The notes beneath the pieces are model-generated. The model did not search any database. It was not told the origin of the DNA and saw nothing but the letters and a program-made list of their open reading frames with translations. Positions 51,010 to 64,000 of a stretch of DNA of 64,000 nucleotides are shown here, piece after piece. A program made the translations under genes and the position numbers. This DNA is from Microbulbifer agarilyticus (GTDB taxonomy: Bacteria; Pseudomonadota; Gammaproteobacteria; Pseudomonadales; Cellvibrionaceae), in NCBI RefSeq assembly GCF_001999945.1, contig NZ_CP019650.1:2790001-2854000 (forward strand). Direction: 5' to 3'. The stretch's first letter is position 1. Every line of letters starts with the position of its first letter.

Positions 51010-51153
51010 AGATAATGCCGCCGGCTAGGGCAGCTTACCTTGTGCGAATTTTACGCAAAAATGGGACTAAAACGACCTGCGGAAAAGGTACACAAGGTAA
51101 GCTGTCCCGCAGAGGAGCCCAGGCCGGGAGCTACGTTCCCCGCCTTGTTATAC
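51010..51153 (-). repeat. attC 1 (terminal site, mutated core)
   Basis: 144 bp, main family. The outer core triplet reads ATT instead of GTT on the minus strand, so cleavage there is probably lost. Confidence 0.85.
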
Positions 51154-51204
51154 GATTGATGTTGCTTCAATTCTAATGATTTCCATGGAATATCTAAGTA
51201 GAGA

Positions 51205-51450
51205 CTATTTGTAATCGCCCCATGGAGATTTCTTCTCGAATGTCGAGACATAAAGTTTCTCGACCTTGTCTCGTGCCCATTGATTTTTTCGTAGAAATTT
51301 TAGCGATGACTTAATTGATGCATCACTCTTAAAACAATTTATGCTAATTCTATCTGCCAAACCGTCCCAGCCATAATGCTCCTGTAATCGCGTTACTACT
51401 CTTTCGAGCGTAACACCATGTAGTGGATTGTTCGGTTGCTCTTTACTCAT
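51205..51450 (-). CDS. Cassette 1: VF530 / DUF2132 family protein
   Basis: The 81-aa protein matches the VF530 (DUF2132) family: [20 protein letters not shown], then [14 protein letters not shown], then [20 protein letters not shown]. These are small helical proteins, structurally linked to DNA binding, of unknown cellular role. It is the last cassette of the array and may be locked in place by the mutated attC 1. It lacks a signal peptide, unlike most neighbours. Confidence 0.85.
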
Positions 51451-51480
51451 TTTTCAATCGATACTCTAGATCTGAAACCG

Positions 51481-51623
51481 CATAACGCCGCCGGCAGGGG
51501 CAGCTTACCTTGTGCGCATTTTGCGCGAAAATGGGAGCACAGCGACCTGCGCAAAAGGTGCACAAGGTAAGCTGTCCCGCGGAGGGCCCCAGGCCCGGAG
51601 CAAATTGCCCGGCCTTGTTATGC
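51481..51623 (-). repeat. attC 2
   Basis: 143 bp, main family (arms GGCAGCTTACCTTGTGC / GCACAAGGTAAGCTGTCC). Confidence 0.9.
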
Positions 51624-51934
51624 TAAATATCCGCCTTTGCATATTCAGGCTCACTATAACCGAGCCTCACCATGTAATCACCTAAAGCAACATGCTCAGG
51701 CCTGTTGACACCTGTACTCTGGACTATGAGTATTTTTTTGAATTTTTTTGGATCTCTTTCTATCAAATACGTAGAAATCTGATCTCTTGTTTTTATTTCA
51801 ATCCCATTCACGACAAAGTGTTTATCGTATACCTTAATTAGTAAATCATATTTTTGACCCCAAAATGAGTAGTCATCTGCAATCACATATTGGGTGGTTA
51901 GTAGAAAACAAAGCGCTACTAGAATATTTCTCAT
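51623..51934 (-). CDS. Cassette 2: exported protein, unknown
   Basis: Not recognised. From the ATG at 51934 it is 103 aa with a signal peptide (RNILVALCFLLTTQYVIA, cleaved before DDYSFWG). The mature part is about 80 residues, mixed charge, and includes NGIEIKTRDQISTYLI. The frame is open 9 codons upstream, overlapping the attC, without a ribosome site. The stop TAG touches the attC 2 core. Confidence 0.7.
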   Translation of the reverse strand: MRNILVALCFLLTTQYVIADDYSFWGQKYDLLIKVYDKHFVVNGIEIKTRDQISTYLIERDPKKFKKILIVQSTGVNRPEHVALGDYMVRLGYSEPEYAKADI

Positions 51935-51946
51935 TACTGATCTCGA

Positions 51947-52090
51947 GCATAACGCCCGCAACAGGGGCGACCAATGCTAGGCACGTGTTGTGCGAAACTG
52001 GGAGCGCAGCGACCCGCACAACACGTGCCTAGCGTTGGGCGTCCCGCGGAGGCCCGAAGGGCCGGAGCATTTTGCTTGCGCTTGTTATGC
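51947..52090 (-). repeat. attC 3
   Basis: 144 bp, subfamily with GCCCGCAACAGGGGCGACC and inner end TTGCGCTTG or similar (GCTTGCGCTTGTTA). Confidence 0.9.
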
Positions 52091-52462
52091 ATATTTCTTG
52101 CGACTAGCCATAAAAGCAGCAAGGGCGCCACAACCAACAAGAACAACGAAATGTGGAACATAAATAGTGTATTGACTGGTATATGTGACAAATAACAATG
52201 CTTCACAAGAAATCAGTGCCGCTATTGCAGTAACCCATGGATTGAGCCGCAAAATTTTTATCGAGAAATATACAAGTAGAAACGCTATGACTCCATAACC
52301 CAGGAATTGGGTTACTGCAATTTCCCAGATTAGAAAACTTTTACCAGATAGCACTTCAGCCACTTCTTGTGGAACCGCAATTGCTGCAGAGAATCCCGTG
52401 AAATACACGCCCAAATACGCTATCGCAATGCCGATCGCTAATCCAATTACTACGTTTTTCAA
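52085..52462 (-). CDS. Cassette 3: membrane protein, unknown
   Basis: Not recognised. 125 aa with four hydrophobic segments (about 3-25, 45-68, 72-90 and 97-118) and a short basic C-terminus ASRKKYA. Very little soluble sequence, so an inner-membrane protein. The TAA stop is part of the attC 3 inner core. Confidence 0.75.
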   Translation of the reverse strand: MKNVVIGLAIGIAIAYLGVYFTGFSAAIAVPQEVAEVLSGKSFLIWEIAVTQFLGYGVIAFLLVYFSIKILRLNPWVTAIAALISCEALLFVTYTSQYTIYVPHFVVLVGCGALAAFMASRKKYA

Positions 52463-52478
52463 CTATCTCTCCTTGAAT

Positions 52479-52622
52479 GCATAACGCCCGCAACAGGGGC
52501 GACCAATACTATGCACATTTTGTGCGAAATTAGGCGCGCAGCGACTCGCACAAAATGTGCATAGTGTTGGGCGTCCCACGGAGGCCCGCAGGGCCGGAGT
52601 CAACTGCTTGCGCTTGTTATGA
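52479..52622 (-). repeat. attC 4
   Basis: 144 bp, same subfamily as attC 3 (CCCGCAACAGGGGCGACC). Confidence 0.9.
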
Positions 52623-52920
52623 GTACCTCCAGGAGTAGCAGCGCAACGAAGAGAAAAAAGAATATGAATGATGTTTCATACCTTCTTTTTACTCGTCTTT
52701 TAGACGCTAACACTTCCTTTGGTAGATCCTCTCGCTCAAGTTCCGCATTGCCAAATATCAGCCCCCAATAATAGTAGGAACGGTTGAAAAGCGAAAAATA
52801 CTTTTTGTGAAGATCCGGACGTTCGTTCTTTACAGCCTTTAAGAGGCTCCTGCCTGAAACCGTGGCAAACAGAAACAACCCAAACCCCAAAGCAAAACAA
52901 ATTATTCCAATAACTAGCAT
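52600..52920 (-). CDS. Cassette 4: membrane protein reading into its attC
   Basis: Not recognised. 106 aa with one hydrophobic helix at each end (about 2-22 and 84-101) around a basic, charged middle (KNERPDLHKKYFSLFNRSYY). The frame does not stop in the attC core but continues, so the last residues ITSASS are encoded by attC 4 itself. It is probably an inner-membrane protein with a cytoplasmic loop. Confidence 0.72.
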   Translation of the reverse strand: MLVIGIICFALGFGLFLFATVSGRSLLKAVKNERPDLHKKYFSLFNRSYYYWGLIFGNAELEREDLPKEVLASKRRVKRRYETSFIFFFLFVALLLLEVLITSASS

Positions 52921-52935
52921 GCCGTCAGTACGTAC

Positions 52936-53079
52936 TCATAACGCCCACGGCAGGGGCGGATTACCTTATGCGCGTTTTGCGCGAAAATGGGAGCAAAGCG
53001 ACAGCGCAAAACGTGCATAAGGTAAGCCGTCCCGCGGAGGCCCGAAGGGCCGGAGCTTCATTGCCCGTGCTTGTTAAGT
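52936..53079 (-). repeat. attC 5
   Basis: 144 bp, subfamily with CCCACGGCAGGGGCGG; identical over its body to attC 19, which belongs to the duplicate of the same cassette. Confidence 0.9.
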
Positions 53080-53084
53080 GGGGA

Positions 53085-53333
53085 CTAGCATCCGCCATCG
53101 CCCCCACCCCCGCCGTCACCTCCACCACCATAACCGCCATCGCCCCCGAAATACCCGCCGCTACTGGTACGTTGATTGACACCAAATTTCACAATAAACC
53201 AGAGAATGCTAGATATGAGAAAGCCAGTAAAGATGATTGGTGCAAAGACTGAATTGAATGAATAGCTAGAGGACAGTTCTATAAAGTGCCAAGAACCTAA
53301 AAGGCCCACCAGATTGAACAAAAATGACTTCAT
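53085..53333 (-). CDS. Cassette 5: Gly/Asp-rich-tailed membrane protein (copy 1)
   Basis: The ATG at 53333, preceded by AAAGGAA, gives 82 aa. Two hydrophobic segments (about 5-18 and 28-50) are followed by a soluble tail made almost only of Gly and Asp and ending in Cys82 (DGGGGGDGGC). It differs from the copy at 60496-60744 at three residues. The function is unknown; the tail may be extended and flexible. A GTG 18 nt upstream lies in the attC and is less likely. Confidence 0.75.
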   Translation of the reverse strand: MKSFLFNLVGLLGSWHFIELSSSYSFNSVFAPIIFTGFLISSILWFIVKFGVNQRTSSGGYFGGDGGYGGGGDGGGGGDGGC

Positions 53334-53349
53334 TGGTATTCCTTTATTC

Positions 53350-53461
53350 ACTTAACGCCGCTAGCAGGGGCAGCCGGAGCGCTTGGCGGGCGAAGCGCGC
53401 CGCGTAGGCTGTCCAGCCGAGCCCCGGAGGGGCTGGGCGGTCCTGCCTAGCCTCGTTATTG
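53350..53461 (-). repeat. attC 6 (short type)
   Basis: 112 bp; belongs to non-coding cassette 6. Shares CTAGCAGGGGCAGCCGGAGC and CCTGCCTAGCCTCGTTATT with attC 22 but has extra bases in the loop. Confidence 0.85.
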
Positions 53462-53743
53462 CGGCCGCACTCTGAACTACCTACTAGCACTTTGCCAGCC
53501 ACGGCTTGGCTGGCGACTGCCTAAATTTACGAGGAAAGAATACCGCACTTCCCCCACCTATTTATTATCTTACTGGCACTCCAAGAAAACACTCAGGATT
53601 GCCCTCTTCTGCCGAACCTGAGCGAACGCTCTAGGAACGAACATACTGGAATAGCAACCAGCCAGACTAGATCAATATTGGATGCTATTTTGTGGCACTG
53701 AAACTTCAGCAGCCTCGAATAGACGAAAAAAACCTACCGGCAC
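53462..53743 (-). other. Cassette 6: non-coding cassette (copy 1)
   Basis: About 280 nt between attC 6 and attC 7 with no credible frame on the minus strand. It holds a NotI-type GCGGCCGC at the attC junction and a hairpin GCCAGCCA / TGGCTGGC (53494-53514). The same sequence recurs at 61806-62086 with many small changes, so it is a real, repeated cassette. It could encode a small RNA or carry a promoter. Confidence 0.75.
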
Positions 53744-53888
53744 CAATAACGCCGCCAGCAGGGGCAGCTTACCTTGTGCGCGATTTGCGCGAAAATAGGA
53801 GCGCAGCGACCCGCGCAAAACGTGCACAAGGTAAGCTGTCCCGCGGAGGGCCGAAGGCCCGAAGCTTCATTGCCTGGCTTTGTTATGT
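53744..53888 (-). repeat. attC 7
   Basis: 145 bp, main family. Confidence 0.9.
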
Positions 53889-53890
53889 GT

Positions 53891-54313
53891 TTACCTAACT
53901 AGGGCCACATGTTCTCCACTCTCAATTTCATGTATTGAAATTTTTATGGGCACGTCAACTGATTTATCAAAGCCAAAAATTTGAACTGTTAGGTAACGCG
54001 GTTTAACGGAGCCAAGGCAATTTTGGCATTCGTAAACTTTATCTACTGTAAATATCCCACCTTTTGGAAAAATCTTTCTAGATATAATCTCAGGCGACTC
54101 ATGCTGGACTGAATACAGCCTACCTAGCCTATAAATATCTACATCAGCTCCGTACCCGGGAGGCAAGTTGATCCCAGTAATTTCCATATCATGTGTCGTT
54201 ACATATTTCTTCCCAACGTAAAAAGAAACAGCAGGATCATCGCTAATTTCTACATAGTTGGCTTTGCAGGCCGCCAGAAAAGCGATAGAGACTATTACGA
54301 AAATTCGATTCAT
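53891..54313 (-). CDS. Cassette 7: putative lipoprotein
   Basis: Not recognised. 140 aa with a lipoprotein signal (MNRIFVIVSIAFLAAC, lipobox LAAC at Cys16). The mature part looks beta-rich, with a CQNC pair (YECQNCLGSVK) that may bind metal or form a disulfide. Probably anchored in the outer or inner membrane facing the periplasm. Confidence 0.75.
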   Translation of the reverse strand: MNRIFVIVSIAFLAACKANYVEISDDPAVSFYVGKKYVTTHDMEITGINLPPGYGADVDIYRLGRLYSVQHESPEIISRKIFPKGGIFTVDKVYECQNCLGSVKPRYLTVQIFGFDKSVDVPIKISIHEIESGEHVALVR

Positions 54314-54323
54314 CTTTCTCTAC

Positions 54324-54467
54324 ACATAACGCCCGCAACAGGGGCGACCAGTCCTATGCACCTTTTGTGCAAAAATGGGAGTGAAACGACCAGCACAAAA
54401 GATGCATAGGGTTGGACGTCCCGCGGAGGCCCAAAGGGCCGTAGCAAACTGCTTGCGCTTGTTATAT
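54324..54467 (-). repeat. attC 8
   Basis: 144 bp, subfamily of attC 3 and 4. Confidence 0.9.
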
Positions 54468-54683
54468 TTACCTTGAGGGAGGTACCGAATCTGGCCACCG
54501 CCTCATACGTTCATTTTCCTTTTCCTGCTCACGCTTATCATCCTCACGCTTTTTGTAAATCTGACACGCAAGCTCACTGAACCAGTCGCGATTATTCTCT
54601 TTGCCGTGGATATCAACAGAAGAAGAACTGCAACAACCAGTAAGAACAAATACTAACATTGACACTAAAGCTTTTTCGTACAT
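54468..54683 (-). CDS. Cassette 8: small charged lipoprotein
   Basis: Not recognised. 71 aa: lipoprotein signal with lipobox LTGC (Cys17), a Ser-rich spacer, then a strongly charged helix (IYKKREDDKREQEKENERMR). The small size and charged helix suggest a surface or periplasmic anchor; no function is claimed. Confidence 0.7.
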   Translation of the reverse strand: MYEKALVSMLVFVLTGCCSSSSVDIHGKENNRDWFSELACQIYKKREDDKREQEKENERMRRWPDSVPPSR

Positions 54684-54696
54684 TCATTGCTCGGAA

Positions 54697-54839: not shown

Positions 54840-54840
54840 T

Positions 54841-55101
54841 TTAACCCATGAACGAGATTGCTAAGAATATTGCCGCAATAACGGCTGCAAAAGCGAACAT
54901 TGAACCCAACTGTCGACGCCCCTGAAAATTTCTCTCCCTTTCATGAAATAGAGATTTCAACCCTGAGTCATCTAGATGAGAGCAATGGGAGCACTCACCT
55001 TTCCTAGTATCGTATTGGTAAAAGCAGCGCTGGCACTTTCGAAAGTACTTACGATGTTCAAGTAATTCTTTGAACTTATATAGTGCTGTGCCAAATGCCA
55101 T
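54841..55101 (-). CDS. Cassette 9: zinc-ribbon membrane protein
   Basis: Not recognised as a family. The ATG at 55101 with GAGG just upstream gives 86 aa. A four-Cys ribbon (KCQRCFYQYD and ECSHCSHLD) precedes one C-terminal helix (about 67-84). Upstream in-frame codons to 55155 come from the attC and are discounted. It is likely a tail-anchored membrane protein with a cytoplasmic zinc knuckle. Confidence 0.68.
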   Translation of the reverse strand: MAFGTALYKFKELLEHRKYFRKCQRCFYQYDTRKGECSHCSHLDDSGLKSLFHERERNFQGRRQLGSMFAFAAVIAAIFLAISFMG

Positions 55102-55115
55102 ACGATCCTCGAGAA

Positions 55116-55235
55116 ACATAACGCCCAGCGCAGGCGCAGCCAGCGCTGGGCGCATTTTGTGTTAATGTTTGAGCGGCAGCGAGCAACACAAAAGGTGCGT
55201 AGCGTTGGCTGTCGCTCTGCCGCTGCTTGTTAGGG
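55116..55235 (-). repeat. attC 10 (divergent)
   Basis: 120 bp; shorter arms (GCGCAGCCAGCGCTGGGCGC) and a Ser-free loop unlike the main family; core GTTAGGG. Confidence 0.82.
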
Positions 55236-55772
55236 CTACTTTGGTTTCCTTGCCACGACAAAGCCTTTTGTAGGTGCACAACTTTCCCAGCATGAAGTAC
55301 CAACCACAATATCCGGATACTCATAAAAATAGAGTGCCAACTCCTTATTTTCATTTGTAGTAGCTGAAAGCTCCCAAATTTTAGGCTTAGCCTTTGGGAC
55401 ATCCTGCCCAATAGATCCGAATATATTTTTCTGGTGCAAGCCGTGCAGGAATTCATTTGCACTTCCACTAAGCTCATCAACTGATATAGAGGTGAAATAG
55501 TATTCATCTGGCCCCAAACTCGGCTTCTCGTTAGAGACTAATTGGGCTGGATAAATTATTGGCCTGCGTTCCGGGATGAGGACGAACCCATAGTTTTCCG
55601 TAAAAGTAATAATGTGACCATATTTTGAACATTCAACTTTTGCCCATTGCTCTATAGGGGCTCCCGTGATTTCGGTAACGGAAGACTTCGGTGCATTATC
55701 ACACGTTCCCGCGAACGCTTGCGCAGCCGATAACAGCAAGCCAGTTAAACTCAGTTTTATAATTTTTTTCAT
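55236..55772 (-). CDS. Cassette 10: exported protein, unknown
   Basis: Not recognised. 178 aa with a signal peptide (KKIIKLSLTGLLLSAAQAFA, cleaved before GTCDN). The mature part has five Cys, including SCWESC near the end, and several aromatic residues. The stop TAG directly follows attC 10. It is the longest single-gene cassette product apart from cassette 14. Confidence 0.73.
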   Translation of the reverse strand: MKKIIKLSLTGLLLSAAQAFAGTCDNAPKSSVTEITGAPIEQWAKVECSKYGHIITFTENYGFVLIPERRPIIYPAQLVSNEKPSLGPDEYYFTSISVDELSGSANEFLHGLHQKNIFGSIGQDVPKAKPKIWELSATTNENKELALYFYEYPDIVVGTSCWESCAPTKGFVVARKPK

Positions 55773-55807: not shown

Positions 55808-55924
55808 CCCTAACGCCGCGCTCAGGGACGGCTTACTTTGTGTGCATTTTGCGCAAAAATAGGAGCGCAGCGACTGTGCAAAAGGTGCACAAAGTAAGAC
55901 GTCCCCTGCAGCGCCTTGTTATGC
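55808..55924 (-). repeat. attC 11 (divergent)
   Basis: 117 bp; lacks the GGAGGGCC segment of the main family but keeps the GCTTACTTTGTG arms. Confidence 0.82.
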
Positions 55925-56197
55925 ATCTTTTTCTTGAGGTTTTGCTTCGACTACAAGCATTACAAAACCAAGGAATAGAATGAAGTTTAAGGCCAGGTCG
56001 AACAAACTGTTGGCATTAGCTGCGGTATTCGCAAAAATATTTAGTACCAAGAACGGGAAAAAATATATTGCAACTAGCTTCCAATTGAACCCTATCGAGA
56101 ACTTTGCACCACATTTAGGGCATGACTTACTTTTTGCCATTGAGTTCGCTTCTTTGGAAAGCAAACCGATTTTGTAGGAGCAACTTGGACACTTCAT
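55919..56197 (-). CDS. Cassette 11: zinc-ribbon membrane protein
   Basis: The ATG at 56197, 7 nt after AGGAG, gives 92 aa. An N-terminal four-Cys ribbon (MKCPSCSYK and SCPKCGAKF) precedes two hydrophobic helices (about 40-56 and 63-83). Zinc-ribbon plus membrane proteins of this sort are widespread and uncharacterised. The TAA stop lies in the attC 11 core. Confidence 0.72.
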   Translation of the reverse strand: MKCPSCSYKIGLLSKEANSMAKSKSCPKCGAKFSIGFNWKLVAIYFFPFLVLNIFANTAANANSLFDLALNFILFLGFVMLVVEAKPQEKDA

Positions 56198-56211
56198 TAT
56201 TATCTCCTGAT

Positions 56212-56355
56212 GCATAACGCCCACGGCAGGGGCGGCTTACTTTATGCGCGTTTTGCGCAAAAATGGGAGCGTAGCGACCGCGCAAAACGTGCATAAGGTA
56301 AGCCGTCCCGCGAAGGCCCGAAGGGCCGTAGCTTCACTGCCCGTGATTGTTATGT
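56212..56355 (-). repeat. attC 12
   Basis: 144 bp, subfamily with CCCACGGCAGGGGCGG (as attC 5, 19 and 21). Confidence 0.9.
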
Positions 56356-56664
56356 TTCTCGGACTAGCTTCTTTAGCACAAATGTAATACCCAATGCAGC
56401 AAGGACAAACACCACCATAACCTCGTGATTTCCAGTGTTATCTGCCCACCTTTGAGCCCTCTTCTTACTCCCCAAAATGCTAACAAGTACGAGCGGCAAC
56501 CAGATTACGCCCAAAATTAAGCCAACTGCCAGCGCTGCCTGGCTGTCTGCTCCCTCTCTATAGAAGACGGCAATCGAGACAGCCAAGAGAGATATACCAA
56601 TAATGAACAGTAGAACTCTTGAAGATAATTCATCAAATTCTTCTCTTTTCCTTCTACTACTCAC
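56350..56664 (-). CDS. Cassette 12: membrane protein, unknown
   Basis: Not recognised. 104 aa: a basic N-terminus (SSRRKREEFDEL), then hydrophobic helices at about 17-35, 43-64 and 80-98. The TAA stop is in the attC 12 core. Probably an inner-membrane protein with three helices. Confidence 0.72.
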   Translation of the reverse strand: MSSRRKREEFDELSSRVLLFIIGISLLAVSIAVFYREGADSQAALAVGLILGVIWLPLVLVSILGSKKRAQRWADNTGNHEVMVVFVLAALGITFVLKKLVRET

Positions 56665-56677: not shown

Positions 56678-56820
56678 ACATAACGCCGCCGGCAGGGGCA
56701 GCTTACCTTGTGCGCGTTTTGCGCAAAAATGGGAGCAAAGCGACCTGCGCAAAAGGTGCGTAAGGTAAGCTGTCCCGCGGAGGGCCCAGGCCCGGAGCAA
56801 GTTGCCCGGCCTTGTTAGTG
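56678..56820 (-). repeat. attC 13
   Basis: 143 bp, main family; inner core GTTAGTG. Confidence 0.9.
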
Positions 56821-57168
56821 CATTGGTATTACTACCCTCTTGGCCTCGGGAAAAACAACTCCAGCCTCTTGCGCAATTTCTTTTGAGTTAATGCCGCTGA
56901 AGTACAAGTCTATAACACCTTTGTTTTTCAAAAAAAGGCTAATTACAGCAGCTTCCTGGATCAACTCAACACTCTCTCTCCTAATCCGAATGGTTTTAGG
57001 ACCAAACGGCCAAGTACCTAGCGAAGTAGTAATTTCAATTCGATCTCCAAGATCACGAAAAATCCTTTTTTCAATATCGTGAAATTTTCTATTCGTATAT
57101 TCTTGAGTTATGTATGGAGCCAAAAAGGCGATAAGAAATGAACTTATTCCAGTTATCAAATATTCCAA
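56815..57168 (-). CDS. Cassette 13: membrane-anchored protein, unknown
   Basis: Not recognised. 117 aa with an N-terminal hydrophobic helix (MEYLITGISSFLIAFLAPYI) and a soluble domain of about 95 residues with alternating beta and helical character. The stop TAA is in the attC 13 core. The single anchor suggests a cytoplasmic or periplasmic sensor-like domain, which is inference only. Confidence 0.7.
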   Translation of the reverse strand: MEYLITGISSFLIAFLAPYITQEYTNRKFHDIEKRIFRDLGDRIEITTSLGTWPFGPKTIRIRRESVELIQEAAVISLFLKNKGVIDLYFSGINSKEIAQEAGVVFPEAKRVVIPMH

Positions 57169-58127: not shown

Positions 58128-58390
58128 GAATTATCCTTTTTATCCGTTGATCCGATATTTATGCTCACGTCACCACCGGCTTGTATACCTGTAGCATGTT
58201 TACCTATGCGCTGAGACTGACCTGAAGCTTCTTCTGACTTTTTATCGAAGAAAAAAGTCGATATCAATGCAGATAGTGATACAACTGTAGTCAGGGCTGG
58301 TTCAAAGCTACGTTCAAAGTAAAGCCAGGCACATGAGATACATAGTGCAACAAAAGCCAATATTCTAATTATGATTCTCATGATTCTCAT
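58124..58390 (-). CDS. Cassette 14, gene a: small membrane protein with IQAGGDV motif
   Basis: The 88-aa protein has two hydrophobic helices (about 4-22 and 31-47) and a cytoplasmic tail with GIQAGGDVSINIG, the same motif found near the N-terminus of the following protein. The ATG at 58390 has GAGGAA 4 nt upstream. It overlaps the next start by 4 nt. The shared motif suggests that the two products assemble, the small one at the membrane; that is inference. Confidence 0.72.
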   Translation of the reverse strand: MRIMRIIIRILAFVALCISCAWLYFERSFEPALTTVVSLSALISTFFFDKKSEEASGQSQRIGKHATGIQAGGDVSINIGSTDKKDNS

Positions 58391-58404: not shown

Positions 58405-58548
58405 GTATAACGCCGCCAGCAGGGGCAGCTTACCTTGTGCGCGTTTTGCGCAAAAATGGGAGCGTAGCGACCTGCGCGAAACGTGCACAAGGTAAGCTGT
58501 CCCGCGGAGGGACGAAGGCCCGGAGCATTTTGCCTGGCCTTGTTATGT
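58405..58548 (-). repeat. attC 15
   Basis: 144 bp, main family. Confidence 0.9.
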
Positions 58549-58550
58549 TT

Positions 58551-58868
58551 TTACTCAAAACTTGTGTTTCTCTCAATATCTTGAATCAAATGGTAGATAT
58601 TGCTGCATAGCGTACAAAGCCTTGAGTTTATCTGATCCAGTTCCTGCTCTGAGACTTGATGCCCGTTCGCGGGATGAATTACAAGGTCATTGAGAGTACC
58701 AATAGTGCCGAACCATGTTTTTGCTTCTTCGATACCTCGATAATTTGAGACAGACAGAAATGAGCGAGCTTTCTTAACTGCACTGCTCCAGCCGTCTTCG
58801 CCAACATGCTCGAGAAGGCTGGATAGCTGATCCATTTCCCTGATCATTTTTTCAGTTAATGGCCCCAT
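58551..58868 (-). CDS. Cassette 15: DUF6966-like protein
   Basis: From the ATG at 58868 (AGGAG 7 nt upstream) the protein is 105 aa. It resembles DUF6966: LSSLLEHVGEDGWSSAVKKA, then GIEEAKTWFGTIGTLNDLVI. It is soluble, helical and has no signal peptide. In-frame codons run back through attC 16 to 58964 and are discounted. The function of the family is unknown. Confidence 0.65.
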   Translation of the reverse strand: MGPLTEKMIREMDQLSSLLEHVGEDGWSSAVKKARSFLSVSNYRGIEEAKTWFGTIGTLNDLVIHPANGHQVSEQELDQINSRLCTLCSNIYHLIQDIERNTSFE

Positions 58869-58880
58869 AACTCTCCTGAA

Positions 58881-59024
58881 ACATAACGCCGCCGGCAGGG
58901 GCAGCTTACCTTGTGCGCGTTTTGCGCAAAAATGGGAGCGCAGCGACCTGCGCAAAGCGTGCACAAGGTAAGCTGTCCCGCGGAGGGCCGCAGGCCCGGA
59001 GAAAATTGCCCGGCCTTGTTAGAG
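58881..59024 (-). repeat. attC 16
   Basis: 144 bp, main family; inner core GTTAGAG. Confidence 0.9.
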
Positions 59025-59396
59025 CGATTGACCACATCGCTCCACCAATTTTGAATTATATGCCTCGGCTTGTAATACATACCTAGTTGAACTTTTCATG
59101 CCCTCAACCTTCCCTCGATCGCTAAGCCCATAAGAGTCCAAGTCAATAGCGCCAGAAGAGATAGATTTTTGCCTACGATATTCATCGCAGACATATCCCT
59201 CTAACTGGCTAGCGATGGTTGACTCATGATCTCGCGCCGACTCCGAAAGAAGATCCGCGATTGCCACCATTGCTTTTCCTCGATCGGTGAGCGAAGCAAC
59301 ATCATGGTGCACCGCCCACTGTTTAGATACAAAGAAATACGAGACTGCGAGCCCCATTATCATTCCAGCTATGAAAATCGATATTTTTACTTTCAT
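59019..59396 (-). CDS. Cassette 16: membrane-anchored periplasmic protein, unknown
   Basis: Not recognised. 125 aa with an N-terminal helix (KISIFIAGMIMGLAVSYFFV) and a helical domain of about 95 residues (LTDRGKAMVAIADLLSESAR). Two Cys (YVCDEYRRQ and ERCGQSL) may pair. The stop TAA is in the attC 16 core. Likely a signal anchor with a periplasmic domain. Confidence 0.7.
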   Translation of the reverse strand: MKVKISIFIAGMIMGLAVSYFFVSKQWAVHHDVASLTDRGKAMVAIADLLSESARDHESTIASQLEGYVCDEYRRQKSISSGAIDLDSYGLSDRGKVEGMKSSTRYVLQAEAYNSKLVERCGQSL

Positions 59397-59398
59397 CG

Positions 59399-59542: not shown

Positions 59543-59549
59543 GTTTCAC

Positions 59550-59849
59550 TCAAGACCAAGCACCATACTTGGCTATTGATGGAAATGACAACGTGACTAT
59601 GACAAAAACAACAAACACTAGAAGCTTTATCGCTAATACTACCAAAGAGCTGTGCCACACACTTTTGTCACCCTCTGGGTTACTCCATTCACCCGGCATG
59701 TCATCATCAAGTGTAATCAAGTGGCCGACGGCGATCAAAGCCGCGAGCCCACATAAGGTATAGGCATAAGCAACGCCTGCGAAAAACGACAAGCCAATTG
59801 TTACGGCCACAATAAATAGCGTGGAATATATAGCATTATTAAGGGTCAA
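59550..59849 (-). CDS. Cassette 17: membrane protein, unknown
   Basis: Not recognised. 99 aa with three hydrophobic segments (about 6-25, 28-45 and 67-88). A loop with LDDDMPGEWSNPEGDKSVWH lies between the second and third. Probably inner membrane. Confidence 0.7.
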   Translation of the reverse strand: MTLNNAIYSTLFIVAVTIGLSFFAGVAYAYTLCGLAALIAVGHLITLDDDMPGEWSNPEGDKSVWHSSLVVLAIKLLVFVVFVIVTLSFPSIAKYGAWS

Positions 59850-59862
59850 AATTCTGACCTAC

Positions 59863-60006
59863 GTATAACGCCGCCGGCAGGGGCAGCTTACCTTGTGCAC
59901 GTTTTGTGCGAAAATGGGAGCGAAGCGACCCGCACAAGTTGTGCACAAGGTAAGCTGTCCCGCGGAGGGCCGTAGGCCCGTAGCTAATTGCCCGGCTTTG
60001 TTAAGT
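59863..60006 (-). repeat. attC 18
   Basis: 144 bp, main family; most similar to attC 20, as expected for the duplicated cassette. Confidence 0.9.
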
Positions 60007-60342
60007 GTTTTTCCATGCCTTGGACCATGGGTTCCAACTGTCTTCATTGCGCAAATATACCAAAAGAGGCAAATGTTCCATTTTCTGGGGGAATGGAACT
60101 GCCATCATTTGCTCTTTGAAACTCCGATGACTCTCTGAGTAGTTGGCCAATAAATTAGTTAACGCAACACTAGCAACTTCTCTAGCCTCTTCGCTTGCTT
60201 CTCCATCAAATATAAAGCGAGCAACTAAATTTCTACCGTCCGGAGACAACTTAAAAGATATCGCCCTAAAAGATGGGGCAATTTCGCCCAGAAGTGCTCC
60301 TTGAGCATATTGCATCAATTTTATTTCTTGCTCGGTTCTCAT
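60001..60342 (-). CDS. Cassette 18: small soluble protein, possibly CdiI-like (copy 1)
   Basis: The ATG at 60342 gives 113 aa; a GTG 6 nt earlier is an alternative start. The pattern ALLGEIAPSFRAISFKLSPD, then FIFDGEASEEAREVAS, then PLLVYLRNE recalls small CDI-immunity-like proteins, but I cannot confirm a family. It is soluble. A near-identical copy, differing at five residues, lies at 60899-61240, with one cassette between them. Confidence 0.7.
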   Translation of the reverse strand: MRTEQEIKLMQYAQGALLGEIAPSFRAISFKLSPDGRNLVARFIFDGEASEEAREVASVALTNLLANYSESHRSFKEQMMAVPFPQKMEHLPLLVYLRNEDSWNPWSKAWKNT

Positions 60343-60346
60343 AGAC

Positions 60347-60490
60347 ACTTAACGCCCACGGCAGGGGCGGATTACCTTATGCGCGTTTTGCGCGAAAATG
60401 GGAGCAAAGCGACAGCGCAAAACGTGCATAAGGTAAGCCGTCCCGCGGAGGCCCGAAGGGCCGGAGCTTCATTGCCCGTGCTTGTTAAGT
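60347..60490 (-). repeat. attC 19
   Basis: 144 bp; identical over its body to attC 5. Confidence 0.9.
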
Positions 60491-60495
60491 GGGGA

Positions 60496-60744
60496 CTAGC
60501 ATCCGCCATCGCCCCCACCCCCGCCGTCACCTCCACCACCATAACCGCCATCGCCCCCGAAAAACCCGCCGCTACTGGTACGTTGATTGACACCAAATTT
60601 CACAATAAACCAGAGAATGCTAGATATGAGAAAGCCAGTAAAGATGATTGGTGCAAAGACTGAATTGAGTGAATAGCTAGAGGACAGATCTATAAAGTGC
60701 CAAGAACCTAAAAGGCCCACCAGATTGAACAAAAATGACTTCAT
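60496..60744 (-). CDS. Cassette 19: Gly/Asp-rich-tailed membrane protein (copy 2)
   Basis: 82 aa, a duplicate of cassette 5 with three changes (Glu19 to Asp, Phe26 to Leu, Tyr61 to Phe). It has the same two hydrophobic segments and the same Gly/Asp tail ending in Cys. The changes are conservative and the frame is intact, so both copies appear to be maintained. Confidence 0.75.
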   Translation of the reverse strand: MKSFLFNLVGLLGSWHFIDLSSSYSLNSVFAPIIFTGFLISSILWFIVKFGVNQRTSSGGFFGGDGGYGGGGDGGGGGDGGC

Positions 60745-60760
60745 TGGTATTCCTTTACTC

Positions 60761-60904
60761 ACTTAACGCCGCCGGCAGGGGCAGCTTACCTTGTGCACGC
60801 CTTGTGCGAAAATGGGAGCGAAGCGACCCGCACAAGTTGTGTACAAGGTAAGCTGTCCCGCGAAGGGCCTCAGGCCCGTAGCAAATTGCCCGGCTTTGTT
60901 AAGT
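60761..60904 (-). repeat. attC 20
   Basis: 144 bp, main family, a few differences from attC 18. Confidence 0.9.
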
Positions 60905-61240
60905 GTTTTTCCATGCCTTGGACCATGGGTTCCAACTGTCTTCATTGCGCAGATATACCAAAAGAGGTAAATGTTCCATTTTCTGGGGGAATGGAACTGC
61001 CATCATTTGCTCTTTGAAACTCCGATGATTCTCTGAGTAGTTGGCCAATAAATTAGTCAACGCAACACTAGCAACTTCTCTAGCCTCTTCGCTTGGTTCT
61101 CCATCAAATATAAAGCGAGCAACTAAATCTTCACCGTCCGGAGACAACTTAAAAGATATCGCCCTAAAAGATGGGGCAATTTCCCCCAGAAGTGCTCCTT
61201 GAGCATATTGCATCAATTTTATTTCGTGCTCGGTTCTCAT
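60899..61240 (-). CDS. Cassette 20: small soluble protein, possibly CdiI-like (copy 2)
   Basis: 113 aa from the ATG at 61240, a duplicate of the product at 60001-60342 with five differences, clustered in two surface-like stretches (DGED for DGRN, GEPSE for GEASE). The stop TAA lies in the attC core, as in copy 1. Variation limited to loops would fit a partner-binding protein; this is speculative. Confidence 0.7.
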   Translation of the reverse strand: MRTEHEIKLMQYAQGALLGEIAPSFRAISFKLSPDGEDLVARFIFDGEPSEEAREVASVALTNLLANYSENHRSFKEQMMAVPFPQKMEHLPLLVYLRNEDSWNPWSKAWKNT

Positions 61241-61244
61241 AGAC

Positions 61245-61389
61245 ACTTAACGCCCACGGCAGGGGCGGCTTACATTATGCACGATTTGCGCGAAAATGAG
61301 AGCGAAGCGAACCGCGCAAAACGTGCATAAGGTAAGCCGTCCCGCGGAGGCCCGAAGGGCCGGAGCTTCACTGCCCGTGATTGTTAAGT
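61245..61389 (-). repeat. attC 21
   Basis: 145 bp, subfamily with CCCACGGCAGGGGCGG. Confidence 0.9.
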
Positions 61390-61701
61390 GTGGCATTTCT
61401 CAATGCTCAGCTCATACACACCATCTTTAGGCTGAAACATTTCTACGTGTTGAATCCTACGTTTTTCATGCCAACCACAGAAATTGAAGTCTTTTTCTGT
61501 TTGGTGGCAGATGGATAGTGCTGCCTGGATATTTTTTGCTTTCACATTGGTGCAATTCAATTTTGTGCAAGAACCGCTACTTTCAATTTTTACTTCAACT
61601 GAACGGTGCGCAGAAGCTTCAGATATACAATTACCTTGAGCGAGCGTAGTGGCTGAAAAAACAAGCAGAGCTACGTTTATTATTGTTCCAAGTGATTTCA
61701 T
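61384..61701 (-). CDS. Cassette 21: exported Cys-rich protein
   Basis: Not recognised. 105 aa with a signal peptide (GTIINVALLVFSATTLAQ, cleaved before GNCIS). The mature part of about 83 residues has six Cys (NC, SCTKLNC, IC, FC, KC), which suggests disulfide bonding in the periplasm or outside the cell. The stop TAA is in the attC core. Confidence 0.73.
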   Translation of the reverse strand: MKSLGTIINVALLVFSATTLAQGNCISEASAHRSVEVKIESSGSCTKLNCTNVKAKNIQAALSICHQTEKDFNFCGWHEKRRIQHVEMFQPKDGVYELSIEKCHT

Positions 61702-61710
61702 GGTACTGAC

Positions 61711-61805
61711 ACTTAACGCCGCTAGCAGGGGCAGCCGGAGCGCAGCGTAGGTTGTCCCAGCCGAGCCCCGAAGGGGCTGGGCGATCCTGCCTAGCCTCGT
61801 TATTG
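61711..61805 (-). repeat. attC 22 (short type)
   Basis: 95 bp; belongs to non-coding cassette 22 and pairs with attC 6. Confidence 0.85.
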
Positions 61806-62086
61806 CGGCCGCACTCTGAACTACCTACTAGCACTTTGCCAGCCACGGCTTGGCTGGCCACTGCCTAAATTTACGAGGAAAGAATACCGCACTTCCCCCA
61901 ACTATTTTTTATCTTACTGGCATTCCAGGGGAATACTCTGGATAGCCCTCCTCTACCGAGCCTGAGCGAACACTCTAGGAACGAACATGCTTGCATAGCA
62001 ACCAGCCAAACTAGCTCAATGGTGGATGCTATTTTGAAGCACTGAAACTTCAGCAACCTCGGATAAACAAAAAAACCTACCGGCAC
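61806..62086 (-). other. Cassette 22: non-coding cassette (copy 2)
   Basis: Second copy of the non-coding cassette of 53462-53743, with the same GCGGCCGC at the junction and the same hairpin (61838-61858). Scattered substitutions but nearly the same length. No credible frame. The region just before the next attC keeps an A-run and CCTACCGGCACCAATAAC in both copies. Confidence 0.75.
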
Positions 62087-62230
62087 CAATAACGCCGCCG
62101 GCAGGGGCAGCTTACCTTGTGCGCATTTTGCGCGAAAATAGGAGCGTAGCGACCTGCGCAAAAGGTGCACAAGGTAAGCTGTCCCGCGGAGGGCCGTAGG
62201 CCCAGAGCAAATTGCCCGGCCTTGTTATGT
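62087..62230 (-). repeat. attC 23
   Basis: 144 bp, main family. Confidence 0.9.
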
Positions 62231-62542
62231 ACACTTGGCACCAGGCTCGGGCGGATGCTCCTTTAACCACTGCTTATCATTTGCTTTAGTTGTGTAGTTC
62301 CACTGCGTTTCAAGAGTAACACTACTGTCCACGAGTAAATTAAGTGCCGATTCTCTTTTACATTTTATTCGATAGACGCTGAGCACATGAACTACATTGT
62401 CCAGGTGCCCTTTATCTAGCAACTCCGGGGCAGGTTTGATTCCAACATTTGGCTCGTATACCAGCGGCATATATTGACGCATTGCTTGAGCATGAGCTGT
62501 TGCTGAAAATACTAGAACTAGAGAAAGTGCCAAAAATTTCAT
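62225..62542 (-). CDS. Cassette 23: exported protein, unknown
   Basis: Not recognised. The ATG at 62542 gives 105 aa with a signal peptide (MKFLALSLVLVFSATAHAQ). The mature part has a QYMPLVYEPNVGIKPAPELL stretch and two Cys. Upstream in-frame codons to 62632 come from attC 24 and are discounted. The stop TAA is in the attC 23 core. Confidence 0.72.
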   Translation of the reverse strand: MKFLALSLVLVFSATAHAQAMRQYMPLVYEPNVGIKPAPELLDKGHLDNVVHVLSVYRIKCKRESALNLLVDSSVTLETQWNYTTKANDKQWLKEHPPEPGAKCT

Positions 62543-62548
62543 TTCAGT

Positions 62549-62692
62549 ACATAACGCCGCCGGCAGGGGCAGCTTACCTTGTGCGCGTTTTGCGCGAAAA
62601 TGGGAGCGCAGCGACCCGCGCAAAAGGTGCACAAGGTGAGCTGTCCCGCGGAGGGCCCTAGGCCCGTAGCAAATTGCCCGGCCTTGTTATGA
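62549..62692 (-). repeat. attC 24
   Basis: 144 bp, main family. Confidence 0.9.
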
Positions 62693-62998
62693 ATTACGAT
62701 CTACTCCCAACCCTAAAAACGTCCAGTATAAGATACAGAATACTCCCGGGGCTGGCGCAAAGACGAATAACATTATTCCACTCACTTCACCCCCTCCCTG
62801 CTGTGTCATCCAATAGTAGAACGAGAGAAGTAAAAAAATGGCAATTAGTAAGAATATGTAAGCTGAGGCTCTGTATCCCTTTTTAGTAAAATTTTTCCAG
62901 TTGCAAAAATCGTAGACACCCTTAATCACCCCAAATGGGATAGTTATCAACACAACGAGAAAAAATGTTACCGCAAAAAAACGAAGCATTTCTTCCAT
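62687..62998 (-). CDS. Cassette 24: membrane protein, unknown
   Basis: Not recognised. 103 aa with three hydrophobic segments (about 5-27, 45-63 and 75-95), a basic loop (CNWKNFTKKGYRASA) and a QQGGGEVSG loop. AAGG lies 9 nt before the ATG. The stop TAA is in the attC 24 core. Confidence 0.72.
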   Translation of the reverse strand: MEEMLRFFAVTFFLVVLITIPFGVIKGVYDFCNWKNFTKKGYRASAYIFLLIAIFLLLSFYYWMTQQGGGEVSGIMLFVFAPAPGVFCILYWTFLGLGVDRNS

Positions 62999-63033
62999 GA
63001 TATAACCTTCTCAGACGAAAAATCCCTTACGAT

Positions 63034-63177
63034 TCATAACGCCGCCGGCAGGGGCAGCTTACCTTGTGCGCATTATGCGCGAGAATGGGAGCACAGCGAC
63101 CTGCGCAAAAGGTGCACAAGGTAAGCTGTCCCGCGGAGGGCCGCAGGCCCGGAGCAAATTGCCCGGCCTTGTTATGC
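63034..63177 (-). repeat. attC 25
   Basis: 144 bp, main family. Confidence 0.9.
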
Positions 63178-63513
63178 ACGAGCTTGCTCTGCTGCTGCGC
63201 GTACCCCGAGAATAAATAGCGTTACGGCGACAATACTCGTTATTGAGTAAACTAGGTCTTCAGCTTCACCGACCCACTCTACACCTACACTCGCACCCAC
63301 AAGATGAGCCACCGGGCCGATTGTATAGTTGAACAAGTTTGTCAAAAAATACACTAAGAATGCTCCGGAAAAATATGCCAAATGTTTGAGTCCAGATGAC
63401 TCTTTCGATTTCTTTAGTGATAGAAAACAATATAGATAGGCTGCGGTACACACCAATCCAACTATCACTGATATAACAAAAACAACTGACACTGAGCTAC
63501 CCTCTTCCATCAT
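63172..63513 (-). CDS. Cassette 25: membrane protein, unknown
   Basis: Not recognised. From the ATG at 63513 (AGGA just upstream) it is 113 aa. An ATG at 63540, lying inside the attC core, would add 9 residues. Four hydrophobic segments (about 8-31, 42-60, 62-75 and 87-103) leave little soluble sequence. The stop TAA is in the attC 25 core. Confidence 0.7.
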   Translation of the reverse strand: MMEEGSSVSVVFVISVIVGLVCTAAYLYCFLSLKKSKESSGLKHLAYFSGAFLVYFLTNLFNYTIGPVAHLVGASVGVEWVGEAEDLVYSITSIVAVTLFILGVRAAAEQARA

Positions 63514-63536
63514 TCCTAAATTTTTTATTAATAGTT

Positions 63537-63623
63537 GCATAACGCCCTAATAACCGGCAGCCGAAGCGCAGCGTAGGCTGTCCGGCGCGCAACGTGCGCG
63601 CGAAGTTCATTAGTTTGTTAAAC
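63537..63623 (-). repeat. attC 26 (short)
   Basis: 87 bp; arms GGCAGCCGAAGCGCAGCG / CGTAGGCTGTCC-like and an ACGTGCGCG loop; inner core GTTAAAC. Confidence 0.85.
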
Positions 63624-64000
63624 CTTTCTTCCACTGATGTATCGGATAAGCTCCTCCCCAAACATTGTAAGCCTCATGTTAATAAAGTTTGGTCCACCAG
63701 AACTAGCGCTGGCACCTTCTGGTAAGGCCACTACTCTTTCGTTCATAAGATCATTCATGAGACGATAAACAAGCTCTCTTGATTTTAAGTCATTATCATA
63801 GCCTGCCAAATTCTTAAAGAATTCTAACTGTCTTTCCTGGGTTAGTTGAATACTTTTGTCTACCTCAGACAGAGATGCCAAATATTCAAGAAGCTTTAGG
63901 TGCAGCGAGGTCAGCCTAGCAATGGAGTTGAGATAAATACAAACCAGTGATTCTTCGAGGGTTTGATCTAATGCAACTGAAATAAGGCCATTGGATAAGG
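63618..64000 (-). CDS. Cassette 26: unknown protein, truncated by the window edge
   Basis: Not recognised. The frame is open from the right edge to a TAA in the attC 26 core. A TTG at 63881 begins a possible 87-aa product, but the frame continues 39 codons further to the edge with normal residues (EESLVCIYLNSIARLTSLHL), so the gene very likely starts outside. It is helical in the first two thirds, with LPEGASASSGGPNF before the last segment. No signal or membrane helix is visible. Confidence 0.65.
   Translation of the reverse strand, partial: LSNGLISVALDQTLEESLVCIYLNSIARLTSLHLKLLEYLASLSEVDKSIQLTQERQLEFFKNLAGYDNDLKSRELVYRLMNDLMNERVVALPEGASASSGGPNFINMRLTMFGEELIRYISGRKV

Follow-up and report, generated by a model that had tools for sequence, protein, structure and literature searches.

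A 26-cassette sedentary chromosomal integron of Microbulbifer agarilyticus and the attI motifs scattered over its genome

The array and its integrase

The analysed window, a 64,000-nucleotide stretch of the Microbulbifer agarilyticus chromosome, contains an array of 26 cassettes, of which only the first few hundred bases fall outside. Together with its flank, this array very probably (about 0.93) makes up a complete sedentary chromosomal integron. The system is a known kind of integron in a new arrangement. As the original prediction had described, 26 attC-like elements in a single orientation, all on the minus strand, span 51016-63620. The length first given for most of them, 143-145 bp, is reached only with flanking bases: measured from TAAC to GTTA, 20 of the 26 sites are 137-139 bp long, and the remaining six measure 66, 81, 89, 106, 111 and 114 bp. 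R' is intact (GCGTTA on the minus strand) in 25 sites and mutated to GGCATTA in the leftmost, c26 (51016-51153). Single small genes had been reported between the sites, which is true except for cassette 13, with two ORFs, and the units 53459-53746 and 61803-62089, in which no ORF is shared between copies. From the integrase side leftwards, the features are:

from 63618, continuing past the window end, minus: cassette gene 1, ORF of 249 aa
63540..63620, minus: attC c1, 81 bp, 20-nt side hairpin
63172..63540, minus: cassette gene 2, ORF of 122 aa; Pfam search without match
63037..63174, minus: attC c2, 138 bp, side hairpin
62687..62998, minus: cassette gene 3, ORF of 103 aa
62552..62689, minus: attC c3, 138 bp, side hairpin
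62225..62632, minus: cassette gene 4, ORF of at most 135 aa; listed start inside attC c3, true start probably internal
62090..62227, minus: attC c4, 138 bp, side hairpin
61803..62089, minus: cassette 5, no ORF common to its copies
61714..61802, minus: attC c5, 89 bp, 28-nt side hairpin
61384..61701, minus: cassette gene 6, ORF of 105 aa
61248..61386, minus: attC c6, 139 bp, side hairpin
60899..61246, minus: cassette gene 7, ORF of 115 aa; near-copy of gene 9
60764..60901, minus: attC c7, 138 bp, side hairpin
60496..60762, minus: cassette gene 8, ORF of 88 aa; near-copy of gene 22
60350..60487, minus: attC c8, 138 bp, side hairpin
60001..60348, minus: cassette gene 9, ORF of 115 aa
59866..60003, minus: attC c9, 138 bp, side hairpin
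59550..59849, minus: cassette gene 10, ORF of 99 aa
59402..59539, minus: attC c10, 138 bp, side hairpin
59019..59396, minus: cassette gene 11, ORF of 125 aa
58884..59021, minus: attC c11, 138 bp, side hairpin
58551..58964, minus: cassette gene 12, DUF6966 by Pfam search (55.7 bits; cut-off 27)
58408..58545, minus: attC c12, 138 bp, side hairpin
58124..58390, minus: cassette 13, first ORF, 88 aa
57261..58127, minus: cassette 13, second ORF, 288 aa
57188..57253, minus: attC c13, 66 bp, without side hairpin
56815..57168, minus: cassette gene 14, ORF of 117 aa
56681..56817, minus: attC c14, 137 bp, side hairpin
56350..56664, minus: cassette gene 15, ORF of 104 aa
56215..56352, minus: attC c15, 138 bp, side hairpin
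55919..56224, minus: cassette gene 16, ORF of 101 aa
55811..55921, minus: attC c16, 111 bp, without side hairpin
55236..55772, minus: cassette gene 17, 178 aa, copy present in the 278-kb array
55119..55232, minus: attC c17, 114 bp, without side hairpin, three single extrahelical bases
54841..55155, minus: cassette gene 18, ORF of 104 aa
54700..54836, minus: attC c18, 137 bp, side hairpin
54468..54683, minus: cassette gene 19, ORF of 71 aa
54327..54464, minus: attC c19, 138 bp, side hairpin
53891..54313, minus: cassette gene 20, ORF of 140 aa
53747..53885, minus: attC c20, 139 bp, side hairpin
53459..53746, minus: cassette 21, no ORF common to its copies
53353..53458, minus: attC c21, 106 bp, side hairpin
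53085..53351, minus: cassette gene 22, ORF of 88 aa
52939..53076, minus: attC c22, 138 bp, side hairpin
52600..52920, minus: cassette gene 23, ORF of 106 aa
52482..52619, minus: attC c23, 138 bp, side hairpin
52085..52462, minus: cassette gene 24, ORF of 125 aa
51950..52087, minus: attC c24, 138 bp, side hairpin
51623..51961, minus: cassette gene 25, ORF of 112 aa
51483..51620, minus: attC c25, 138 bp, side hairpin
51205..51450, minus: cassette gene 26, ORF of 81 aa; member of the VF530 DNA-binding family (116 bits against a cut-off of 27)
51016..51153, minus: attC c26, last site, at which the array ends on the left; decayed, with mutated R'

The attC orientation had been taken to place the integrase to the right, and intI was found there, starting 665 bp past the window end; the attI motif lies nearer, at 352 bp. 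The window array is thus nearly whole, and the earlier view of it as the distal end of a larger array had to be given up. Chromosomal integrons with 100 or more cassettes do exist (PMC5371416), but a much longer integron of which the window held only the far end is next to impossible here, given these distances, the lack of any attC between c1 and intI in the core-site scan, and the contiguous 4.26-Mb assembly, which refutes it. The integrase gene, intI-A (contig C1, 2854710-2855648), scored 416 bits against TIGR02249 (cut-off 265), a model above cut-off in none of 14 control genomes. It reads away from the array and stands tail to tail with groEL, directly behind. The best solved relative of its product is V. 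cholerae IntI (2a3v, E 2e-83). Eight IntI residues that contact extrahelical bases are named in the available text of PMC3053210; in an alignment to 2a3v inspected by eye, all eight positions of IntI-A match either the V. cholerae residue (six) or the IntI1 residue (two: K for Q145 and R for W157). A LexA-type box lies 13 nt before the start codon. At the head of the array stands a region resembling attI, about 250 bp long, whose end is TGAATAAAACTGTTA and whose motif lies at C1:2854352-2854366; this putative attI is defined by sequence conservation beside intI, which the motif accompanies at 14 sites. The idea that the left edge of the region is an inverted IntI core (AACAG) was rejected, as the frequency of that core there (4/14 intI-linked and 5/55 intI-less sites) resembled that in windows further upstream.

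The marine gammaproteobacterial origin proposed at the outset was borne out, the host being a Microbulbifer and IntI-A 75-82% identical to its counterparts at seven Microbulbifer loci. The sedentary character also held, with homogeneous attCs (mean column identity of 88% for 18 of the 26 window sites plus one attC of the second integron) and intI next to groEL in 12 or more of the 25 genus genomes (our own and 24 others). That the array is a mobile integron borne by a transposon or plasmid is highly improbable. We found no point in its favour, and besides the position of intI it is opposed by strong attC-model matches (E<1e-10) in 24/25 genus genomes against 0/13 others of the order, by the absence of a transposase among the 23 cassette proteins scanned, and by one 138-bp attC having no similar DNA in 72,556 plasmids (E 0.01). 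One cassette protein compared with viral contigs also gave no match. A search of the 24 other genomes gave a single partial match (E 1e-60) to the gene left of the array (48136-50562), which was ruled out as a conserved neighbour.

Structure of the attC sites and cassettes

The elements do fold as attC hairpins that have R and L boxes as well as extrahelical bases, the point on which the original prediction had been made to depend. The bottom strand folds more stably than the top in 26/26 window attCs, with z-scores reaching -7.8 against dinucleotide shuffles; the short sites c5 (z -0.5) and c13 (z -1.0) fold no better than shuffles. The window attC folds are not due to chance. In an alignment of 19 sites (18 of the 26 window attCs and one from the second integron), double-sided pair changes numbered 17 versus 10.4 in shuffles, with 0/500 shuffles as high, and further pair types, one of five covariation measures, were not above shuffles (21 versus 24.4). 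A larger set of 97 distinct sites gave 26 double-sided pairs versus 13.8, although this set leans to the model, by which its sites were chosen at E 1e-20 and aligned. Detection relied on a core-site scan and a covariance model (R1), which replaced home-made scanners that were too loose or insensitive; of the 26 window attCs, the strict arm-pairing scanner picks up no more than 15, of which 13 have an insert of 20-31 nt and two a single base. Lone core-site matches at 2051229, 2840320 and 2964374 of the genome were dropped, having no attC-like arms.

In 23 of the 26 window attCs, as read from the alignment and folds and with the decayed c26 counted in, a side hairpin of 20-31 nt replaces the middle extrahelical base. 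By the precedent of the blaIMP-1 attC, such a hairpin need not block excision: according to the available text of PMC3053210, that site bears extra structure between its extrahelical bases, was strongly excised by four of five integrases with an attC partner, and suffered no interference from the structure in the authors' opinion. The precedent concerns side structure as published, the sequences of the blaIMP-1 and window attCs lying outside the comparison, and blaIMP-1 is a single mobile cassette, whereas in the window array the side-hairpin attC is the main type. The hairpin might instead hinder IntI and lock the cassettes in, turning hairpin attCs into a store of cassettes unable to leave. 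The same source reports that the spacing and identity of extrahelical bases strongly alter excision and, in its Table 1, that none of five integrases excised the blaIMP-1 cassette when attI3 lay upstream, that with attI1 in this position excision was weak and confined to IntI1, and that VchIntIA never excised it. We nevertheless regard such locking as unlikely, in view of the strong excision with an attC partner and of the cassette-end complementarity described below, which is equally present in hairpin attCs and others. The hairpin attCs form natural pairs (111-114 versus 138 bp) that resemble each other in terminal structure and lend themselves to tests of what the middle extrahelical base does.

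The cassettes appear to behave as recombination units cut at G^TT, judging by the complementarity of their own ends. The 5' end of a cassette shares at least three extra complementary bases with the flank of its own attC in 25/26 cassettes (mean 4.7), compared with means of 0.86 for other pairings and 1.28 for actual neighbours (5/25 with at least three; permutation p<1e-4); c26 had 0 bases in this test. The two units without a shared ORF, cassettes 5 and 21, are related to each other, and the family of cassette 21 gave 35 matches in 8 of 38 genomes, own included. One copy has a frame that is open for 72 codons, and a 99-aa ORF begins inside attC c4 and extends into unit 5. A structured RNA was considered and rejected: only one of 26 predicted pairs showed a double-sided change, so that covariation lends this reading no support, and no Rfam match at or near gathering score occurred in the window, this cassette included. 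A promoter cassette and a decayed gene are equally conceivable. Gene cassettes likewise without a long ORF are known from several species in the available text of PMC6557892. The sRNA-Xcc1 cassette, as described in the part of PMC12444791 available, carries a small RNA, in contrast to the lack of Rfam matches at gathering score here.

attI motifs and integrase-less arrays in the genome and genus

The genome has seven attC places, the window array included, with 62 or more attC-like sites; this is a lower bound because the model search scored 150 of 1464 candidates. A second intI lies at one other place, and its adjoining attI motif differs by one base. Four other attC arrays and one lone site have an attI motif without intI, and of the five intI-less attC places four have the motif at their head. 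The first cassette behind attI has both a LexA-type box and a conserved ORF of 58 codons in three satellites of this genome, as it does in two further species. Across the genus, the motif was found at 69 sites in 16 genomes, the exact motif being absent from 9 of the 24 other genomes. There is no intI upstream of 55 of the 69 sites, and 44 of these 55 have an attC downstream (39 by the attC model and five by the strict scanner; one more by loose scan only), the combination that we propose as a satellite attI platform. The groEL site is held by integrases of two clades (p-AU 1e-64, tree of 43 rows), and the arrays of both share one attC type.

Integrase-less arrays have hitherto been taken for degraded integrons. 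We tentatively propose, at somewhat less than even odds, a dispersed integron in which one or two SOS-controlled integrases serve in trans up to six intI-less attI platforms across the chromosome, most of them heading an array of their own. The satellites would then be worked by an integrase encoded elsewhere, and the attI-like region of about 250 bp, which ends exactly at the crossover, would be the unit copied to new sites. The side-hairpin attC type, found in arrays of both clades, would accordingly be tied to the genus-wide cassette pool instead of to one integrase, and the LexA-type box in the first satellite cassette means that satellite arrays could be SOS-switched themselves. Plain relics, inactive and derived from complete integrons that lost intI, are an explanation to which we give a little under half the weight of belief. 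In one genome (G005), the groEL-side intI is down to a 93-aa match, and at two more attI sites there a LexA-type box survives, at -302 or in degenerate form, which is what intI loss predicts. Against relics, the five intI-less clusters of our genome contain no intI remnant at E<=1, and in two others (G000 and G020) the shared region ends 249-251 nt ahead of the crossover without reaching the LexA box or intI. Furthermore, the cassettes common to the window array and the intI-less 278-kb array are 97-99.9% identical, which points to recent traffic or duplication.

If many intI-less arrays keep attI, they would offer further landing sites for cassettes, and a tool blind to attI outside class 1 would miss attI there. 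Microbulbifer also separates two things usually tied together, integrase clade and attC type; since the same attC type occurs beside two integrase clades, the old question of what keeps attCs alike within a lineage becomes directly testable.

Presumed cassette traffic, replication and known integrons

By analogy with the family mechanism, DNA damage would lift LexA repression of intI, the attC bottom strand of a cassette would fold into a hairpin, and IntI would cut it at G^TTA, so that the cassette is excised as a circle and re-inserted at attI. New cassettes would therefore enter at the right and old ones drift left, towards the end where the last attC has decayed. As in the sedentary chromosomal integrons of Vibrio and Xanthomonas, intI lies beside an array with many near-identical attCs and mostly unknown small genes. 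A fixed chromosomal neighbour is likewise shared, ilvD in Xanthomonas (available text of PMC12444791) and groEL here. Unlike in those integrons, in Microbulbifer most attCs have a side hairpin, the same site is held by two integrase clades, and attI motifs are scattered over the genome. The intI-less arrays share their attC type with the complete integron and may be likened to CALINs; they differ from CALINs taken as degraded integrons in the attI motif that heads most of them. The integron of Saccharophagus degradans 2-40 similarly combines a core array with satellite repeat sites: the 140-bp repeat of its 40-gene array recurs at five satellites, and the available part of its description (PMC2386152) makes no mention of attI at the satellites, whereas those of Microbulbifer have the motif.

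Every one of the 26 cassettes has an attC of its own and is read in the direction of the replication fork. With dnaA at the contig start and the terminus placed by the sign change of GC skew at 2.085-2.10 Mb (a dif pattern was not found), all seven attC places of the genome run with replication, and the attC bottom strand is on the leading-strand template in 7/7. The sedentary chromosomal integrons of PMC5371416 are alike in this respect (25/30), as a trend and not a strict rule. For the satellites of the genus, running with replication is also only a trend: in five single-contig genomes, 22/28 motif sites do so by a hand count with the terminus assumed opposite dnaA (own 6/6, G014 3/3, G017 5/7, G018 4/6 and G020 4/6).

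Content and architecture of the cassette array

Judged by its parts and its presumed way of working, the integron seen in the window is a complete sedentary one of an ordinary kind. Its setting is what is unusual: the main attC type bears a hairpin, the integrase at a fixed site has been exchanged and, most notably, attI sites without an integrase gene (intI) occur throughout the genus. The M. agarilyticus genome is a single contig of 4,255,625 bases, of which the window covers C1:2790001-2854000. A total of 26 attC-like elements (c1 to c26, numbered from the intI side leftwards) were found at window positions 51016-63620, all with the cassette strand minus. Measured from TAAC to GTTA, 20 of them were 137-139 bp long, and the remaining six were 66, 81, 89, 106, 111 and 114 bp. 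The array ends on the left in a decayed element, c26, whose R' box was mutated. Neighbouring attC sites enclosed one small ORF as a rule, except in unit 13, which held two, and 25 ORFs were counted in 24 cassettes. Units 5 and 21 were related, with no ORF common to their copies. The Pfam scan covered 23 of the 25 cassette ORFs, all but genes 9 and 22, which are near-copies of genes 7 and 8, respectively. Two ORFs alone scored above the curated cut-off, gene 12 (DUF6966) and gene 26 (VF530). Ten proteins submitted to PADLOC gave two weak matches (E 0.003 and 0.0008). An ORF-less cassette family (window 53459-53746 and 61803-62089) was present in four copies in this genome and gave 35 hits in eight of the 38 genomes compared (this one included), all eight Microbulbifer. 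Whole-cassette alignment of 23 copies showed that the last ~190 nt were best conserved; there was little covariation. The 808-aa gene directly left of the array (window 48136-50562) was not conserved as a neighbour, and one partial match at E 1e-60 was obtained in the 24 other genomes searched.

Two integron integrases exceeded the TIGR02249 cut-off in the genome, and a third hit fell far under it:

C1:214241-215179, minus strand, intI-B, 402 bits
C1:2854710-2855648, plus strand, intI-A, 416 bits

The start of intI-A, at C1:2854665, lies 665 bp beyond the right end of the window; groEL and groES come next, tail to tail with it. The array in the window is therefore nearly whole, lacking only attI and the beginning of cassette 1. 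IntI-A and IntI-B shared 69% identity. IntI-A aligned to V. cholerae IntI (PDB 2a3v) with an E of 2e-83; of the eight contact residues described in PMC3053210, read by eye off this alignment, six were those of V. cholerae and two those of IntI1 (K for Q145, R for W157). The second integron (C1:214241-216843; L101, L002) contained two attC sites only. At least two integrase matches at E 1e-60, some broken or partial, were obtained in 17 of the 25 genus genomes. A perfect CTGT-N8-ACAG box preceded both intI-A and intI-B. Among 22 readable Microbulbifer intI loci (three genomes counted twice; six more genus loci, all of a second integrase clade, were unreadable), the box was perfect at 19, had one mismatch at one and was unseen at two. 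It lay 297-302 nt ahead of the crossover at 13 of 14 intI-linked attI sites.

The bottom-strand fold was more stable than the top-strand fold for all 26 window attC sites. In an alignment of 19 sites (18 from the window and one from the second integron), 95.1% of cells were paired versus 87.1% in shuffles, and a slid structure scored far lower. Pairs changed on both sides numbered 17 versus 10.4 in shuffles, none of the 500 shuffles reaching as high, and further pair types showed no excess (21 versus 24.4). In the most discriminating test, based on the circular form, the first bases of each cassette were compared with those preceding its own attC, with which they should pair in the circle. Pairing extended at least three bases beyond the core in 25 of 26 cassettes, with c26 alone failing, and averaged 4.73 bases. 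The mean was 0.86 among all remaining pairings and 1.28 between neighbours in array order, and the highest mean among 10,000 permutations was 2.27. Such a pattern is what cassettes cut at G^TT should leave in an array.

A side hairpin as the main attC type

The 5' arm of c17 exceeds the 3' arm by three single extra bases. Of these three, the outer two are kept in the 138-bp type and in c1, c5 and c21, but the middle one gives way to an insert of 20-31 nt that folds into a hairpin. By our reading of the alignment and folds, the side hairpin is present in 23 of the 26 window sites; a strict arm-pairing scanner recognised 15 of the 26, 13 with a hairpin-size insert. In 97 distinct sites picked by the model from this and other Microbulbifer genomes (alignment fitted to the model, the insert stretch nearly gap-free), the two helices of the insert were 99.5% and 99.0% paired, with double-sided changes, and one insert pair was G-C in 50 sites and C-G in 46. 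Of 31 distinct sites of this genome, 25 had a hairpin-size insert according to the scanner, as did 34 of 65 sites of other Microbulbifer, a few of them folding weakly. Outside the genus such inserts were found in five of 38 sites (73 loci); four of these folded weakly or not at all, and the fifth folded, its site being found on both strands. In G027, from another family of the order, five 81-bp attC sites (L090) had an insert of 18 nt in the corresponding position, with no fold of its own.

The cassette strand had G as its first extrahelical base, and the bottom strand therefore C, at 30 of 31 sites of this genome and 56 of 65 sites of other Microbulbifer; most attC sites have G there (PMC3053210). 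The same paper (Table 1) reports for the blaIMP-1 attC, which has extra structure between its extrahelical bases, a strong excision by four of five integrases with an attC partner and a weak or nil excision with attI1 or attI3; VchIntIA never excised it. Hairpin-bearing attC sites were thus already known to be possible, and here they have become the predominant kind in an array. In the literature available to us in part, branched or hairpin-bearing attC sites were represented only by the blaIMP-1 case and by branched terminal structures (PMC2727003, PMC5371416).

attI sites without an integrase gene

At least 62 attC-like sites were identified at seven places of the genome by covariance model and core-site scan:

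215.9-216.8 kb, 2 sites, beside intI-B
278.4-284.0 kb, 9 sites
1187.5-1192.8 kb, 7 sites
2053.6-2059.6 kb, 12 sites
2750.2 kb, 1 site
window array, 26 sites
2966.9-2969.0 kb, 5 sites

With dnaA at the contig start and the GC skew changing sign between 2.085 and 2.10 Mb, the cassettes at all seven places are read in the direction of replication and have their attC bottom strand on the leading-strand template, as is the case in 25 of 30 sedentary integrons (PMC5371416). Cassettes recur in more than one cluster; for example, the window array shared with the 278-kb array 698 bp at 99.9% (cassette 17) and a further stretch of 1339 bp at 97.8%. Inside the 1187-kb array (L097:4781-5949), ORFs resembling an IS3-type transposase were recognised by eye.

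The head of the 2053-kb array contains a 654-bp stretch matching the region from intI-A to cassette 1 (73% over 250 bp), and at both places the matching region ends in TGAATAAA(A)CTGTTA. The exact motif was found in 20 of 38 genomes, 16 of them Microbulbifer, at up to seven sites per genome, and was absent from nine of the 25 genus genomes; the reversed pattern occurred once in all 38. Its positions in M. agarilyticus were:

277872, only the motif and likeness to satellites (motif sites lacking intI) of other species
1186794, region 63% identical to the intI-B region
1268432, two short matching pieces
2052672, region 66-69% identical to the intI-A region over 240 nt
2854352, beside intI-A
2969817, region 66-69% identical to the intI-A region over 240 nt

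We compared 69 motif sites, 63 from 15 other genus genomes and six from this one. The intI gene was directly upstream of 14, one of which (in G005) had just a 93-aa piece, whereas 55 lacked intI within ~1.2 kb upstream. An attC followed on the same strand, within the 4 kb or less of downstream sequence covered, at 44 of these 55, detected at 39 by the covariance model and at five by the strict scanner, which gave no match in 200 control pieces of 3 kb. A loose core-site scan alone, matching 12 of 200 controls, added L303; of the remaining ten sites, four had less than 900 bp of sequence left. At C1:1268432-1268446 (L359), the motif stood alone: neither intI nor, over 4.2 kb, any attC accompanied it, and it is possibly an empty platform. 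At 24 of the 55 sites the absence of intI is not an effect of contig breaks, since these sit in single-contig genomes (G000, G014, G017, G018 and G020). No intI remnants were detected at E<=1 in the intI-less clusters of M. agarilyticus. The M. agarilyticus sites at 2052672 and 2969817 match the intI-A site from about -250 to 0. Two sites of G020, one with and one without intI, were 96% identical over the stretch from -250 to 0 and had no match further upstream. The shared region is thus discrete. By translated matches above 60 bits, the upstream flanks of 40 of the 55 sites fell into 15 groups, some spanning species and some within one genome, and L354 grouped with intI-linked sites by its flank, although it showed no piece of intI; some satellites are therefore old. 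In G005, the pattern is instead that of intI loss. We propose the term satellite attI platform for these sites, whose structure is established and which may be used in trans. Detection of attI by IntegronFinder 2.0 is limited to class 1 (PMC9024848). We do not claim that such sites are unpublished, as the literature search was hampered by the unspecific term.

Integrase clades and a LexA-box element

In a tree of 122 integrases, Microbulbifer sequences formed two separate clades, the first among Porticoccaceae, Spongiibacteraceae and Cellvibrionaceae, and the second next to Psychromonas. The groEL-side integrases belonged to both (13 rows and two rows), and a single clade for all 15 was rejected (p-AU 1.4e-64, 43 rows). 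Matches to R1, the attC covariance model, above 110 bits were found beside second-clade integrases (8 in L225, 7 in L226, 16 in L227, 9 in L231 and 2 in L229; none in L234, L235 and L236, the last ending 1.7 kb past intI) and beside first-clade ones (8 in L228, 5 in L230, 2 in L232 and 1 in L233). Both G001 and G014 have two integrases over threshold, all of the second clade, and many R1 matches. The 138-bp hairpin attC is thus common to arrays of both clades, and attC type does not track integrase clade.

A 403-bp cassette-like element was 99-100% identical across four intI-less arrays:

C1:279125-279527
C1:1186804-1187206
C1:2052683-2053085 (L098:2683-3085)
C1:2969416-2969820

It comprises an ORF of 58 codons and a perfect box of the LexA type and directly follows attI in three of the four arrays. 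The same holds for G023 and G018, whose DNA is 79-81% identical, with box and reading frame conserved. The second half of the element was seen in G011, G018 and G021 too, there without the LexA-type box. The element ended in CTTTA in the four M. agarilyticus copies versus CGTTA in the five relatives.
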